A stretch of DNA of 38,310 nt, taken from NCBI GenBank assembly GCA_003153415.1, contig PLYQ01000181.1:1093-39402 (forward strand), given 5' to 3'. Positions 19,720-26,371 of the stretch are shown one piece after another. Source of the DNA: Rhodospirillales bacterium. Lineage in GTDB: Bacteria > Pseudomonadota > Alphaproteobacteria > Reyranellales > Reyranellaceae. The notes below the pieces were generated by a model that ran no database searches, had not been told where the DNA came from, and saw only the letters and a program-made list of their open reading frames with translations. How positions within the stretch are numbered: the first letter of the stretch is position 1; every line of letters begins with the position of its first letter. The position numbers and the translations under genes are program-made.

Positions 19720-20850
19720 ATGAGCAACACTGCACTGGAGCTGCGCTCCAAGATCAGCAAGAGCGGCGAACTCGAACTGTCGCTGGCCAAGGTTCCCGTG
19801 CCCGAGCCCGGGCCCGACCAGGTCGTGGTCAAGGTCGAGGCGACGCCGATCAATCCTTCGGACTTGGGCCTGCTGCTGGGTCCCGCCGACGCCGCGACCT
19901 TCAAGTCGTCCGGCAGCGGCGATAGCACCGTGGTGACGGCCAAGGTGCCGGCCGCGGCGCTGCCCATGCTGGCGGCGCGGCTCGACAAGGCGATGCCGGT
20001 CGGCAACGAGGGCGCCGGGACGGTGGTCAAGGCCGGCTCGTCGGAGGCCGCCCAAGCGCTCAAGGGCAAGACGGTGTCGATGGTCGGCGGCGCGATGTAC
20101 ACGCAGTACCGCCTGCTCAAGGCCAGCGACTGCCAGCCGCTGCCGGCCGGCACGACGGCGGCCGAGGGCGCCTCGTGGTTCGTCAACCCGCTGACCGCCT
20201 TGGGCATGACCGAGACCATGAAGCGCGAGGGCCACAAGGCGCTGGTCCACACCGCGGCGGCCTCGAACCTCGGACAGATGCTGAACAAGATCTGTCTCAA
20301 GGACGGCATCGGCCTGGTCAACATCGTGCGCAGCGCCGAACAGGCCAAGCTGCTGAAGGGCATCGGCGCCAAGCATGTGGTCGACTCGACCGCGCCCTCC
20401 TTCACCGACGACCTCGTGCAGGCGCTGGTCGATACAGGCGCCACCATCGCCTTCGACGCGATCGGCGGCGGCAAGCTTGCCAGCCAGATCCTCACCGCCA
20501 TGGAGATCGCGATCAACAAATCGGCCAAGGAGTACAGCCGCTACGGCTCTTCCGTGCACAAGCAGGTCTATCTCTACGGCAGCCTCAACACCGGCCCGGT
20601 CGAGCTGACGCGCAACTACGGCATGATGTGGGGCGTCGGCGGCTGGCTGCTGACGCCGTTCCTGCAGAAGATCGGCCGGCCCGGCCAGGCGCCGCTGCGC
20701 GAGCGCGTCGTCGCCGAGCTCAAGACCACCTTCGCCAGCCACTACACCAAGGTGATCTCGCTGCCCGAGGCGCTGCAGCTCGCCAACATCGCCGCCTACG
20801 GCAAGCGCGCGACGGGGGAGAAGTTTTTGATCAATCCCAACAAGGGCTGA
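19720..20850 (+). CDS. zinc-type alcohol dehydrogenase / quinone oxidoreductase-like protein
   Basis: VPVPEPGPDQVVVKVEATPINPSDLGLLLG; VGNEGAGTVVKAG; MDR family pattern. Confidence 0.9.
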   Translation: MSNTALELRSKISKSGELELSLAKVPVPEPGPDQVVVKVEATPINPSDLGLLLGPADAATFKSSGSGDSTVVTAKVPAAALPMLAARLDKAMPVGNEGAGTVVKAGSSEAAQALKGKTVSMVGGAMYTQYRLLKASDCQPLPAGTTAAEGASWFVNPLTALGMTETMKREGHKALVHTAAASNLGQMLNKICLKDGIGLVNIVRSAEQAKLLKGIGAKHVVDSTAPSFTDDLVQALVDTGATIAFDAIGGGKLASQILTAMEIAINKSAKEYSRYGSSVHKQVYLYGSLNTGPVELTRNYGMMWGVGGWLLTPFLQKIGRPGQAPLRERVVAELKTTFASHYTKVISLPEALQLANIAAYGKRATGEKFLINPNKG

Positions 20851-20902
20851 CCCCTCTCCGACTCCGTCGCCGCGGACTCACCCCTCGTCTCCAACTCATG
20901 TT

Positions 20903-20926
20903 CCTCTCCCCCGCTAGGGGGAGAGG
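20903..20926. repeat. inverted repeat CCTCTCCCCC-GCTA-GGGGGAGAGG
   Basis: Perfect 10-bp arms, 4-nt loop, about 50 nt after a stop codon; terminator-like or dispersed repeat. Confidence 0.7.
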
Positions 20927-20968
20927 TGCTTGATGGCTTGAAGGGAGAGGGTCAAAAGCGTCCCAAAA

Positions 20969-20988
20969 CGTCCAGACCGGTCTGGACG
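20969..20988. repeat. perfect 20-bp palindrome CGTCCAGACCGGTCTGGACG
   Basis: Read directly; no spacer; intergenic. Confidence 0.75.
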
Positions 20989-20995
20989 CCCGCGA

Positions 20996-21014
20996 CGTCC
21001 CGCTACGCGGGACG
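20996..21014. repeat. hairpin CGTCCCGC-TAC-GCGGGACG
   Basis: Perfect 8-bp arms, 3-nt loop; intergenic. Confidence 0.65.
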
Positions 21015-21105
21015 CCTTGGATGTCGATGGCATAAGGGTTTTAGGCGATTCGTCCAGAATCCAGCCACACCCCCCACGCAACAAAGTTGTGCGCAACGGC
21101 GCCCG

Positions 21106-21420
21106 TCAGGCCGCCTTGGCGCGGATGGTCGGAATGCGGCTCACATCCTCCTCGCGCTCGGCGTGCCAGGTGTCATAGGCGGCCTGCATCCGCGTCCACA
21201 CGCCGGCCCCGTCGCCGAACAGCTTGCCGAGACGGACCGCGACGGCCGGCGACACCGGCTTGCGCTCGCGCAGGATGTCGTGAAGGTGCTGGCGGGAGAT
21301 GCCGAGCATTTCGGCGATCTCCGACTTGGCGCGGCCGGTTGCCGGGATCACGTCTTCGCGCAGGAGCGCACCGGGGTGCGTCGGGCAGCGGGCTCGATGA
21401 CGCTTGGCGACGGTGGTCAT
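21106..21420 (-). CDS. higA: HigA-family HTH antitoxin
   Basis: RCPTHPGALLREDVIPATGRAKSEIAEMLGISRQHLHDILRERKPVSPAVAVRLGKLFGDGAGVWTRMQAAYDTWHA. Confidence 0.95.
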   Translation of the reverse strand: MTTVAKRHRARCPTHPGALLREDVIPATGRAKSEIAEMLGISRQHLHDILRERKPVSPAVAVRLGKLFGDGAGVWTRMQAAYDTWHAEREEDVSRIPTIRAKAA

Positions 21421-21433
21421 GAACGGTCTCTCC

Positions 21434-21712
21434 TCAATGGTACTGCTCGAAATCGACGCGAAGCGCGTCGCCTTCGGAGAATTCGGACGTGATGCACCAC
21501 GGCCCGTTGACATGGACCGAATAGCGCGTCGGATTGAACCCCTTCAAGGGATGAAAGTCGAAGCCAGGGACGTTCATCTCCTCGGGCCTTGCGGCGACAT
21601 CCAGCCGGTCGAGCCGCCGGAAAATCCGCCCCTGCATCCTCGCGTCGATCTTCGCCGTTCGGCCCCTCTCCCACAACTCGGCCAGGGCCTTGCTCCTGAA
21701 GCTTCGAATCAT
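21434..21712 (-). CDS. higB: HigB-family (RelE/ParE superfamily) toxin
   Basis: MIRSFRSKALAELWERGRTAKIDARMQGRIFRRLDRLDVAARPEEMNVPGFDFHPLKG...RYSVHVNGPWCITSEF; immediately upstream of higA. Confidence 0.95.
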   Translation of the reverse strand: MIRSFRSKALAELWERGRTAKIDARMQGRIFRRLDRLDVAARPEEMNVPGFDFHPLKGFNPTRYSVHVNGPWCITSEFSEGDALRVDFEQYH

Positions 21713-21720
21713 CGCGCGAC

Positions 21721-21762
21721 AATGTAAGCTCTCTGCTTACGACTGTCAACAATCGGCTTACA
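21721..21762 (-). promoter_or_regulatory. higBA promoter and tandem operator
   Basis: Minus strand TTGACA-N17-TACATT ending 8 nt before the higB ATG; overlapping TGTAAGC-N5-GCTTACG and TGTCAAC-N5-GCTTACA, offset 21 nt. Confidence 0.8.
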
Positions 21763-21891
21763 GGGCGAACCGTTTGCTCCGAAGACGGCGCGCGCCTGGA
21801 AATCCATTTCGAGAAGGCGCGCGGCCTCCATGGTGACGGGGTCGACCCGATCGAGGCGCGGCTGGAGATCGACACTATCGGCAACCCTACG

Positions 21892-21963
21892 CTTCCCAAC
21901 CTTCCCACCCGCGTGGGAAGCCGCGGACGCCGATCGCATCGCGCTTTCACGCGAACCTTCCCA
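21892..21963. promoter_or_regulatory. iterated CTTCCCA heptamers (three direct, one inverted)
   Basis: CTTCCCA at 21892, 21901 and 21957; TGGGAAG at 21914 (CTTCCCA-CCCGCG-TGGGAAG). Confidence 0.5.
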
Positions 21964-22025
21964 CAATCCGCAACACACCCTCCGACGATTCCAAAAATTT
22001 TTGCGCGAATTCGCGAAAGCCGCCC

Positions 22026-22946
22026 ATGTCCCTGAAACGGCGGGATGATTCAGCTCGGGAGGATAATCGCTATCTGCGACGGATTCTGCGCCATTGGCAG
22101 GAATTCACCCGAGCATTGGGCAGCGACAGCGCAGTGATCGACCGGCTAGAGATATCGGCAGAGACAACATTGCCGCTGCTCACCGTCGATGAGCCTAATG
22201 CTGAGTATCTTTTCAACGTCCTTCGCAAGAGTATGGCATCGAGTCGCCATCTCTCGAAGCATGCTCAGACCACGGCGCTGGCAACTTTCGATCCGAAAAG
22301 CGCTGAGTTACGGACAATCGTTCGGAATCACATCGTAGGCGTTGGCAACCCGGAATACTGGGGAGGTTTGATCGCAGCGGAGGTATTTGCAGAGCAGTTC
22401 AGCGACGACGTAGACCTTCGCGCTGAAGTCGTTGCAACGTTCAGTCGCGAACCCCGAGGATTTGCCGCGACGGCGGCGCTGGCCGAACTTGTGCTGCACA
22501 ACCCTGACGAAAAGTTAGAGAATCTGCTTCGCGAGAAGGCTGACGGCGTTCACTACGACGCCGCCACACATTTTAAGTTAGTCGCGGCCTTGTCGAAACC
22601 GGACAACATCATCGAGGCACTTTGCTGGCTGCTAGCCCGCCTACCCCTAGATTTGCACCAGCTGCAGCTCTCGCGCTGGATACCAGCATTGCTCAGGCGG
22701 ATCGAGAAAGATACCGCTGTTCAAGCGGCACTTCGACTGGCGCTGATCAATTCCTCGTTGACCTCGGAGAAGGCGACGTTCATGTCACTGCTCCTTCGCG
22801 CGGGTACTATCGATGAGGGACTAAGCGCACACATGGCGACGCAGGTAAACTTGGCGCGAACGAGCGCGATGCCGGAAGTTGGCTTCGACCTTGTTGCCCA
22901 ATCCTATCGGATCGTCGAGCATGTGTTTGTAGAAGCCCTTTCGTGA
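22026..22946 (+). CDS. hypothetical all-alpha protein, possible HEAT/ARM-like solenoid
   Basis: 306-aa ORF, predominantly helical, e.g. LRAEVVATFSREPRGFAATAALAELVLHNPDEKLENLL; lower GC codon usage with in-frame TTA codons. Confidence 0.75.
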   Translation: MSLKRRDDSAREDNRYLRRILRHWQEFTRALGSDSAVIDRLEISAETTLPLLTVDEPNAEYLFNVLRKSMASSRHLSKHAQTTALATFDPKSAELRTIVRNHIVGVGNPEYWGGLIAAEVFAEQFSDDVDLRAEVVATFSREPRGFAATAALAELVLHNPDEKLENLLREKADGVHYDAATHFKLVAALSKPDNIIEALCWLLARLPLDLHQLQLSRWIPALLRRIEKDTAVQAALRLALINSSLTSEKATFMSLLLRAGTIDEGLSAHMATQVNLARTSAMPEVGFDLVAQSYRIVEHVFVEALS

Positions 22947-22976
22947 CTCCCGCGGGGTCGAGAGCATCGCCGCCGC

Positions 22977-24626
22977 TCATGCCGCCTCTCTACGACACAG
23001 GCACGACGCCCGCACCGGCACATCGGCGCGCGCCTGCGCCAGATCGAGCCGCGCCTTGATCAACGGCGCCTCCACCGTGTCGCCGCGGCGGCTCAGGCAC
23101 TCATGCAGGCCGTGCAGGCTCCAGACATTCTCCGGATGCCAGCAGGCGCGGCTGAGCTTGGGGTCCAGGCCGAGATCCTCGCGGTAGTACTTCTCGGCCT
23201 CGGCGAGGTGGCCCTGCTCGAGCAGCAGCGCGCCCAGCGCATGGCGCGGCGGCTGCATCCAGCCCCACGGCTCGTCGTAGGGCAGCGCATCGTCGAGTGC
23301 GACGGCGCTTCTCAGGTGGCGGAAGGCCACGTCGAAATTGCCGCGGCGGTATTCGAGTTCGCCGGTCAGCATCTCCTCGGCGATCGCCAGCAGGTCGACC
23401 ATGGTGTTGTTGTGCACGCGCCGCGTATCGGGCACGCGCGCACGGGCGGCACGGAAGGCCGAGCGCATGCGCTCGGCCTCGGCGATCTCGCCCAGCACCG
23501 AGTGGGCCACGCCCTTGGCATAGAGCATCATCGCCGTGGTCGTGCAGTAGAGCGCGGCGTCCTTGGGCAGCTCCTGGGCGATGATCTCGCGCCACTTGCC
23601 GAAGCGCACCAGCACGTGCTGCTTCATCGAGAGGTAGCCCTCGAGGAAGTCGGCCATCGGCGGCGACGGCACGCGCAGCACCGCCTCGGGCGTGGTATCG
23701 ATCAGCTCCTGGGCGGCGGCGATGGCCGGCGCGTACTGGCCGAGGAACATGGCGCCATAGACCACGAAGTGATGGTCGTGGCTGCGGTAGAGGGCATAGA
23801 CGTTGGCCGCGCCCTCGCGCGCCAGGAACTTGCGGTCGACCTCGACCGCCTTCTGGTTCCAGTGCACGACGTCGCGGTAGTTGCCGCACAGCACGTCGAT
23901 GTGGGTCGGCATGTGCACCAGGTGGCCCGAGTCGGGCACCAGCTCGCGCAGCCGGTCGCCGACCCGAAGCGCGCGCTGCGGAAACGGCGACATCTCCATG
24001 AGATGGACATAGAGATGCAGCAGGCCGGGATGGTCCCAGGTCGCCGGGATGTCGCGAAAGCCCTCCTCCAGCACCTCGACGGCCTCGGCCGTGCCGGCGT
24101 CCTTGGCGACGCCGCCGGTGCTGAGATCCCACATCTGCCATGGCGTCTCGTTCATGATCGCCTCGGCGAACACCGAGCGCACCTCGAGATCGCCTCGGTT
24201 GGCCTTGAACAGCTTGCGCATCTCCCGGGTGAAGGCCTTGTCCCAGCCGGACTGGTCCTCGATCGTCTCGCGCTGCGGATAGCGGGCCGGCAGGGCGTGG
24301 ATCAAGGCCTGCTCGACCGGGCTCGCACCACCGGCCGCGGCAAGTGCTGCCTTCATGGCATCGTAGGCGGCGGCGAGCGCCTGTTGCTTGCCGACCGGAT
24401 CGTAGAGATGCCAGGGCAGATTGTAGTTCGGGCCGGCCGCGTAGGAGATGCCCCAGTGCGCCATGGCGCAGGCGGGGTCATGCTCGAGCGCCTTGCCAAA
24501 ACACTTGATCGCCTCGGCATGGTTGAAGCCGAAGAGCCAGTTCAGTCCACGATCGAACCAGAGCTGGGCGTCCGGAGATTTGGTGGTGACCGGACGGGAA
24601 TAGGCACCGAGATCGTAGTAGTCCAT
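22977..24626 (-). CDS. tetratricopeptide repeat protein
   Basis: FNHAEAIKCFGKALEHDPACAMAHWGISYAAGPNYNLPW...; C-terminal LLLEQGHLAEAEKYYREDLGLDPKLSRACWHPENVWSLHGLHECLSRRG. Confidence 0.92.
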   Translation of the reverse strand: MDYYDLGAYSRPVTTKSPDAQLWFDRGLNWLFGFNHAEAIKCFGKALEHDPACAMAHWGISYAAGPNYNLPWHLYDPVGKQQALAAAYDAMKAALAAAGGASPVEQALIHALPARYPQRETIEDQSGWDKAFTREMRKLFKANRGDLEVRSVFAEAIMNETPWQMWDLSTGGVAKDAGTAEAVEVLEEGFRDIPATWDHPGLLHLYVHLMEMSPFPQRALRVGDRLRELVPDSGHLVHMPTHIDVLCGNYRDVVHWNQKAVEVDRKFLAREGAANVYALYRSHDHHFVVYGAMFLGQYAPAIAAAQELIDTTPEAVLRVPSPPMADFLEGYLSMKQHVLVRFGKWREIIAQELPKDAALYCTTTAMMLYAKGVAHSVLGEIAEAERMRSAFRAARARVPDTRRVHNNTMVDLLAIAEEMLTGELEYRRGNFDVAFRHLRSAVALDDALPYDEPWGWMQPPRHALGALLLEQGHLAEAEKYYREDLGLDPKLSRACWHPENVWSLHGLHECLSRRGDTVEAPLIKARLDLAQARADVPVRASCLCRREAA

Positions 24627-24685
24627 GGCGTGTCCCCCGCAGCAGTCTCGCGAGCCGGAAATCTAGCCGGCTTGGCGAGCTCCCG

Positions 24686-24718
24686 AAAGTGACAAGGCTC
24701 GCGCGGGCACGCTACGCT
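24686..24718 (+). promoter_or_regulatory. promoter-like element shared with 27828..27860
   Basis: AAAGTGACAAGGCTCGCGCGGGCACGCTACGCT; GTGACA-N18-TACGCT, 30 nt between motif and the GMC gene ATG. Confidence 0.6.
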
Positions 24719-24748
24719 GGCGTTCCCGGGAAAAGGAATGGATGCGCG

Positions 24749-26371
24749 ATGGCCAACGACTCCGCCTATGACTACATCGTGGTCGGTGCCGGGTCGGCGG
24801 GAGCCGTCGTCGCCAGCCGGCTGACGGAGAGCGGCGCCTACCGGGTGCTTCTGCTGGAAGCGGGAACCGAAGGCTCGAACTTCTTCTGGTCGCGTGTGCC
24901 GGTCGGCGTCGCCAAGATGATCGACGATCCGGCCGTCAATTGGTGCTACTCGTCGGAGCCGGACGAGGGCTCGGGCGGGCGGCGCATCGAGGTGCCGCGC
25001 GGCAAGATGTTGGGCGGCTCGAGCTCGATCAACGGCATGGTCTATATCCGCGGCCAGGCGCAGGACTACGACCACTGGGCGCAGCTCGGCAACCGCGGCT
25101 GGAGCTACCAGGACGTGCTGCCGATCTTCAAGCGCATGGAACGGTTCGACGGCGGCTCGGACGAATATCGCGGCCGCGAGGGCGTGCTGCGCGTCACCCA
25201 CACGCCGCGCCACAAGGTGCCGCTGCTGGAGAAGATGATCGCGGCCGCCGAGAAGATCGGCCTGCCCTACAATCCCGACCAGAATGGCGCCACGCAGGAA
25301 GGCATCGGCATGTCGCAGGTGACGATCGCCAAGGGCCGCCGCCAGAGCACGGCCTTCTGCTATCTCGACCCGGCGCGCGCGCGACCGAACCTGACGATCG
25401 ATCGCGGCGCGATGGCCGGGTCGCTGATCCTGGAGGGCAAGCGTTGCGTTGGCGTCCGCTATTCTGTCGGCGGTGTGCAGCGCAAGGCGCGGGCCAGCCG
25501 CGAAGTGATCGTCTCGGGCGGCTCGATCAACTCGCCGAAGCTGCTGGAGCTTTCCGGCATCGGCCAAGCCGACCGCTTGCGCGCGCTCGGCATCGTGCCG
25601 GTGCACGAGCTCGGCGGCGTCGGCGAGAATTTGCGCGACCATTATTCGCCGCGCGTGAAGTTCGCCATCACGGAGAAGAACCTCACCTTCAACGACAACG
25701 CCCGCGGCTGGCGGCTGGCGCGCGAGGCGCTGAAGTACGTGCTGTTTCGCGAGGGGTTCCTCGCCTCGACGTCGGTGCCGATCCGCCTGTACTTCCGCAC
25801 GCGCGTGGGGCTCGAGACACCGGATGCGACGTTCTCGATCGCGCCCTTCCTGTACGAGATCGTCGGCCACGAGCGGCGCGTCTCGAAGCGGAAGGGCATC
25901 ACCATGAACGTGAACGTGCTGCGCTCCGAGAGCACGGGCTCGATCCACATCAAGTCCTCGGATCCCGCCGAGCCGCCGGCGATCCGCTTCAATTTCCTGT
26001 CGACCGAGCACGATCGGACCGGCGTGCTGGCCGCCATCCGCAAGGGCCGCGAGCTGATGGCGACGTCGCCGCTGCGCGAGGTCACCGGAGAGGAGATCGC
26101 GCCGGGCGCGCATCTGCAGAAGGACGACGAGCTGCTCGATTGGGTGAGAAAGAACGCCGAGACGACCTACCACCCGGTCGGCACGTGCAAGATGGGTTCG
26201 GATCCGATGGCCGTGGTCGATTCCCAGTTGCGCGTGCACGGCCTGCAGGGCCTGCGCGTCGCCGACGCCTCGATCATGCCGACACTGACGAGCGGCAACA
26301 CCAACGCGCCCACCATCATGATCGGCGAGAAGTGCGCCGAACTCGTGCTGGCTGCCGCGGCGGCGCGCTAG
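24749..26371 (+). CDS. GMC family FAD oxidoreductase (choline/alcohol dehydrogenase-like)
   Basis: YDYIVVGAGSAGAVVASRLTESGAYRVLLLEAG; GKMLGGSSSINGMVYIRGQ; NTNAPTIMIGEKCAELV. Confidence 0.95.
   Translation: MANDSAYDYIVVGAGSAGAVVASRLTESGAYRVLLLEAGTEGSNFFWSRVPVGVAKMIDDPAVNWCYSSEPDEGSGGRRIEVPRGKMLGGSSSINGMVYIRGQAQDYDHWAQLGNRGWSYQDVLPIFKRMERFDGGSDEYRGREGVLRVTHTPRHKVPLLEKMIAAAEKIGLPYNPDQNGATQEGIGMSQVTIAKGRRQSTAFCYLDPARARPNLTIDRGAMAGSLILEGKRCVGVRYSVGGVQRKARASREVIVSGGSINSPKLLELSGIGQADRLRALGIVPVHELGGVGENLRDHYSPRVKFAITEKNLTFNDNARGWRLAREALKYVLFREGFLASTSVPIRLYFRTRVGLETPDATFSIAPFLYEIVGHERRVSKRKGITMNVNVLRSESTGSIHIKSSDPAEPPAIRFNFLSTEHDRTGVLAAIRKGRELMATSPLREVTGEEIAPGAHLQKDDELLDWVRKNAETTYHPVGTCKMGSDPMAVVDSQLRVHGLQGLRVADASIMPTLTSGNTNAPTIMIGEKCAELVLAAAAAR

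Follow-up and report, generated by a model that had tools for sequence, protein, structure and literature searches.

A 306-amino-acid open reading frame (ORF) that lies next to a higBA toxin–antitoxin pair raises the question of what the encoded protein is and whether the ORF and higBA belong together. An earlier note, made from the sequence alone, described it as an orphan, all-helical protein of no recognized family, proposed that it forms an undescribed module with higBA and mentioned, as another possibility, the remnant of a defence gene. In this study, the ORF and its surroundings were analysed in a stretch of 38,310 nucleotides, which is referred to as the window, and were compared with proteins and genomes from other sources. 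The gene content points to an alphaproteobacterium as the probable source.

Locus layout and coding sequence

The features of the locus are collected in Table 1. The ORF and higB are transcribed divergently and are separated by a gap of 313 bp. The frame of the ORF runs for 306 codons without a stop (369 from stop to stop), each of the remaining five frames of this segment contains 7–15 stops, and an open frame of at least 300 codons was obtained in none of 3000 Markov-simulated stretches. On account of these frame statistics, the ORF is considered to be a real coding sequence.

Table 1. Features around the 306-aa ORF (positions in the window)
Feature	Position	Strand	Evidence or remark
MDR dehydrogenase gene	19720–20850	+	
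Short repeat, widespread in the genus	20883–20939		
Dispersed repeat; same-genome copies on C169, C17, C367 and C43	20961–21104		
higA antitoxin, 104 aa	21106–21420	−	TIGR02607, E 9.3e-22
higB, RelE/HigB-type toxin, 92 aa	21434–21712	−	Pfam PF05015, E 8.7e-12
Predicted higBA promoter TTGACA-17-TACATT with half-sites TGTAAGC-N5-GCTTAC and GCTTACA	21713–21762	−	
AAA_25 ATPase gene relic, internal fragment of about 30 codons	21784–21885	+	
Diverged copy of the dispersed intergenic repeat, orientation as at 20961–21104	21891–22010		
Putative truncation junction from repeat to NACHT-protein homology, with the ORF ATG (22026) inside	22005–22047		Exact base approximate
306-aa ORF, probable truncated C-terminal end of a nuclease–NACHT–HEAT STAND protein	22026–22946	+	Profile, codon usage
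TPR-protein gene	22977–24626	−	

The composition of the ORF agrees with the atypical codon usage that had been noted previously. Its GC content is 0.561 and its GC3 is 0.62, compared with 0.81–0.94 in the neighbouring genes; TTA codons occur in the three contexts named in the earlier note (at 22308, 22515 and 22578) and in none of six neighbouring genes. With this foreign composition, the ORF looks horizontally acquired. Its supposed helical nature was also borne out as a prediction: the AlphaFold model from the single sequence is all helical, at low confidence (mean pLDDT 48.5). The statement that the protein matches no family holds for curated libraries, in which no meaningful match was obtained (Pfam, NCBIfam and PADLOC), but not for sequence comparison, in which the C-terminal ends of NACHT proteins match.

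Homology to the C-terminal ends of NACHT proteins

A tblastn search of plasmids with the ORF gave one weak match, to the C-terminus of a NACHT protein from Deinococcus aetherius. At E 0.02 it was the top hit in a large database, and it formed the starting point of the homology chain. In a pairwise comparison of the two proteins the E value was 9e-9; however, two chance pairwise matches reached nearly the same raw score, and the pairwise match alone was therefore not accepted. From the Deinococcus protein, further NACHT proteins were reached in Enterobacter, Pantoea and Streptomyces (two proteins), as well as a broken one in Lysinibacillus. Profiles were built from the five intact proteins (Deinococcus, Enterobacter, Pantoea and the two from Streptomyces), with the ORF left out. 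The C-terminal profile from all five matches residues 8–305 of the ORF with 36 bits, compared with at most 7.4 bits in 2000 shuffles. With C-terminal profiles from which the Deinococcus protein was also omitted, the ORF ranked first (E 9.7e-7 to 8.9e-6) among approximately 10,300 targets, which comprised 8,334 ORFs, among them the neighbouring TPR solenoid, and 2000 shuffles; the runner-up was at 0.15 or worse.

In the window, a full-length profile (A3) matched the ORF with an E value of 8.9e-14 and placed it at positions 1326–1623 of a model of 1627, so that the ORF corresponds to approximately the last fifth of a NACHT protein. No other convincing piece of this profile was found within the window, model positions 1–1325 being unmatched there, and no second confident match to it came up in the genome that carries the ORF. 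The alignment with the NACHT proteins is coterminal and spans the whole ORF at a sequence identity of about 24–31%, and the terminal motif G-[FI]-D-x-[LV]-A-x(2)-[VY]-R-x-V-x-H is common to the ORF and the Deinococcus and Enterobacter proteins. As judged by these profile comparisons, the C-terminal helical-repeat region of known NACHT proteins has a homologue in the ORF. The likeness to the C-terminal solenoids of NTPase-type defence proteins that had been suspected from the sequence is thus substantiated by profile A3 and the coterminal alignment, longer homologues with a nuclease–NACHT–HEAT arrangement do exist, and the NTPase domain is indeed missing, as NACHT was found neither in the ORF nor in the window. 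About 80% of the full-length protein, including the nuclease and NACHT, is not in the window.

The full-length relatives contain NACHT above the Pfam cut-off and share one N-terminal region, which in Deinococcus sits in the adjacent upstream gene. This upstream gene matches Mrr_cat just below the cut-off, and the nuclease of the full-length relatives is predicted to be Mrr/PD-(D/E)XK-like. HEAT repeats in the middle of the protein exceed the cut-off in one Streptomyces protein, fall just short of it in the Pantoea protein and are weakly detected in the Deinococcus protein. The last ~300 residues of the latter (WP_264778888.1, from plasmid pDAETH-3) align with the whole ORF and have the same end, and the final 131 aa are 31% identical; in contrast to the ORF, it has NACHT (E 2.3e-8), a central helical region and the Mrr_cat-like gene upstream. 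The 1633-aa protein of an Enterobacter hormaechei IncHI2 plasmid (WP_063863497.1) has the C-terminal region in common with the ORF, including the terminal motif in the form GFDxLAxSxRPVxH, but differs from it in having an N-terminal nuclease-like region and NACHT (E 1.6e-12). The same plan of a PD-(D/E)XK-type nuclease, NACHT and a helical C-terminus is found in bNACHT25 and bNACHT32, which are clade 6 bacterial NLR-related proteins whose nuclease is needed for phage protection (PMC12169576). However, NCH1, the C-terminal domain of clade 6, was not detected by Pfam in the relatives or in the ORF, and the effector and NACHT that bNACHT25 and bNACHT32 carry are both lacking in the ORF. On its sequence, the ORF is accordingly classed as a fragment of a bacterial NACHT (NLR-related) antiphage protein and not as a member, having neither NACHT nor the N-terminal effector.

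Direct searches with the ORF in GTDB contigs, IMG/VR, phages, 64 congeners and the other genomes of a class sample yielded no confident match. The ORF is absent from the 64 congeneric genomes and from 384 other genomes of the class, and profile A2 gave nothing new in 399 genomes of the phylum. DNA-pattern scans of viral and genome contigs for the terminal motif gave only noise among the matches listed. Two weak congener matches (in L002 and L003) were rejected as chance; by sequence, one joins a HigA-type HTH protein to an ImmA-like part, whereas the other is an ABC-transporter permease. No relatives close enough for dN/dS were found.

Independence of higBA and debris at a variable spot

The genes higB and higA belong to curated families and stand in the order known for HigBA toxin–antitoxin modules, with nothing unusual. 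A longer higA frame reaching 21513 overlaps higB, and the start that gives the 104-aa protein (MTTVAK...) was chosen. The half-sites GTAAGC/GCTTAC in the higBA promoter region are conserved in seven loci, the DNA beyond the promoter not being conserved; these half-sites are probably the HigA operator, to which HigA would bind. The whole unit (21106–21762), including the promoter and half-sites, is 75–81% conserved in six congeners. In these six genomes the orthologous higBA has various other neighbours and is not accompanied by the 306-aa ORF.

The DNA between higBA and the ORF consists largely of debris. The AAA_25 relic has DNA matches of 76–89% within intact congener ORFs of about 300 aa, of which an intact copy matches Pfam AAA_25 (E 6.7e-10). 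Congeners carry this intact gene in multiple copies (G001, for instance, has four matches), and it is possibly a mobile-element gene of the genus. The repeat copy next to the ORF has a local alignment score of 70, compared with at most 42 in 500 shuffles, and its alignment fades at about 22005–22010. Homology to the NACHT proteins starts at residue 6–8 of the ORF and, because this is only 15–21 bases past the ATG, the truncation point is placed at or near the junction with the repeat. No promoter-like site was found for the ORF, the sole one found belonging to higBA. The two same-orientation repeat copies bracket higBA and the AAA_25 scrap, and other copies of the dispersed repeat are located at the ends of contigs of the draft assembly or close to them.

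The interval between the MDR dehydrogenase gene and a GMC oxidoreductase gene (20855–24755) is entirely different in the nearest relative (L225:6046–8146), including the TPR gene, which is on another contig there. Instead, between its MDR and GMC genes the nearest relative carries a small membrane-protein-like ORF and one that was read from its sequence as MmgE/PrpD-like. As different genes are carried there, the interval is regarded as a variable spot; the comparison for an empty site that the earlier note had suggested revealed no clean one. That higBA and the ORF lie side by side is best explained as a coincidence in a spot that collects foreign DNA.

Origin of the fragment and alternative explanations

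The ORF is most likely the truncated C-terminal end of an antiphage-type nuclease–NACHT–HEAT STAND protein and a recent relic that presumably has no function today. The remnant of a defence gene, which the earlier note had offered as one of its options, is therefore the best-supported reading, in view of the profile homology, the missing nuclease and NACHT and the debris upstream. The gene would have arrived by horizontal transfer and would have been cut off where it meets the dispersed repeat. The site, a variable spot flanked by the MDR dehydrogenase and GMC oxidoreductase genes, would also have gathered higBA and the AAA_25 scrap. In antiviral STAND proteins, C-terminal sensors bind phage proteins and the N-terminal effector triggers cell death (PMC10907252). 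By analogy of the nuclease–NACHT–helical plan, the C-terminal region of the full-length protein may be such a sensor: its repeats would bind a component of the intruder, NACHT would then oligomerize and the N-terminal nuclease would destroy DNA. The fragment alone cannot run this mechanism, because nothing of the protein is left ahead of its last ~300 residues.

A different fate of the same fragment would be that it is retained and expressed as a stand-alone sensor, acting as a decoy, as a regulator of a NACHT protein elsewhere or as the sensor component of a split system. The fragment could still be expressed and used, because the frame of 306 codons is intact and has kept its own ATG at the junction. 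However, the ORF has no promoter-like site and is flanked by debris, and no stand-alone relative was found in the databases and genomes searched. In addition, no NACHT was found in its own genome at E<=1e-4 among the 46 of 213 candidates that were scored; the assembly is a draft of 367 contigs that is 88% complete, which limits this finding, and a NACHT partner could sit in the missing part. A stand-alone sensor is considered to be improbable. Even less can be said for a single functional module of higBA and the ORF, such as a toxin–antitoxin pair guarding or triggering a helical effector. The two are adjacent and divergently transcribed, but a self-contained higBA unit with other neighbours occurs in six congeners, the ORF was found in 0 of 64 congeners, and the repeat and the AAA_25 debris lie between them. 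Since higBA is carried elsewhere without the ORF, a HigBA-linked module is not supported and is extremely unlikely; with the ORF being the end of a NACHT protein and higBA independent of it, the undescribed module falls away.

The remaining doubts concern the homology and the assembly. The low identity, the two chance pairwise matches of nearly equal raw score and the poor single-sequence structure prediction could suggest that the ORF encodes an unrelated helical protein that resembles the NACHT proteins by chance or as a compositional likeness of alpha-solenoids. Such a coincidence is very unlikely, as composition-matched shuffles and the 8,334 decoy ORFs, TPR solenoid included, score far lower, and the match is coterminal, covers the whole ORF and includes the terminal motif. 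A misjoining of a C-terminal NACHT fragment to host sequence during assembly might be suspected in a draft in which copies of the same repeat are at or near contig ends; however, the ORF lies in the interior of a 39-kb contig and the flanking MDR, TPR and GMC genes match those of congeners, which makes this artefact scarcely credible.

With the truncated NACHT protein as the preferred reading, an apparent orphan is traced to bacterial immune receptors of a known class, and the locus illustrates the decay of such receptor genes at a variable chromosomal spot. The ORF itself matters little as a functional system here and is mostly ordinary genome debris. The divergent C-terminal helical region is of wider interest: it is common to nuclease–NACHT proteins of Deinococcus, Enterobacter, Lysinibacillus and Pantoea, is unnamed in the Pfam, NCBIfam and PADLOC libraries used and could be modelled as a family. 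A distant blastn search found no Escherichia coli relative of the Enterobacter gene. A congener encodes a NACHT protein of 1153 aa (L212:2753–6211) with a nuclease-like N-terminus that matches profile A3 (E 2.6e-34), its C-terminus being unmatched by the profile of the ORF's relatives. The Lysinibacillus plasmid gene of the same family (L186:2878–7056) is broken into several short ORFs, reflecting either decay or sequencing errors. The Deinococcus nuclease and NACHT genes (L005:1508–6375) appear to be a single gene that a frameshift has divided, with the nuclease frame turning to nonsense where the NACHT frame resumes conserved sequence.
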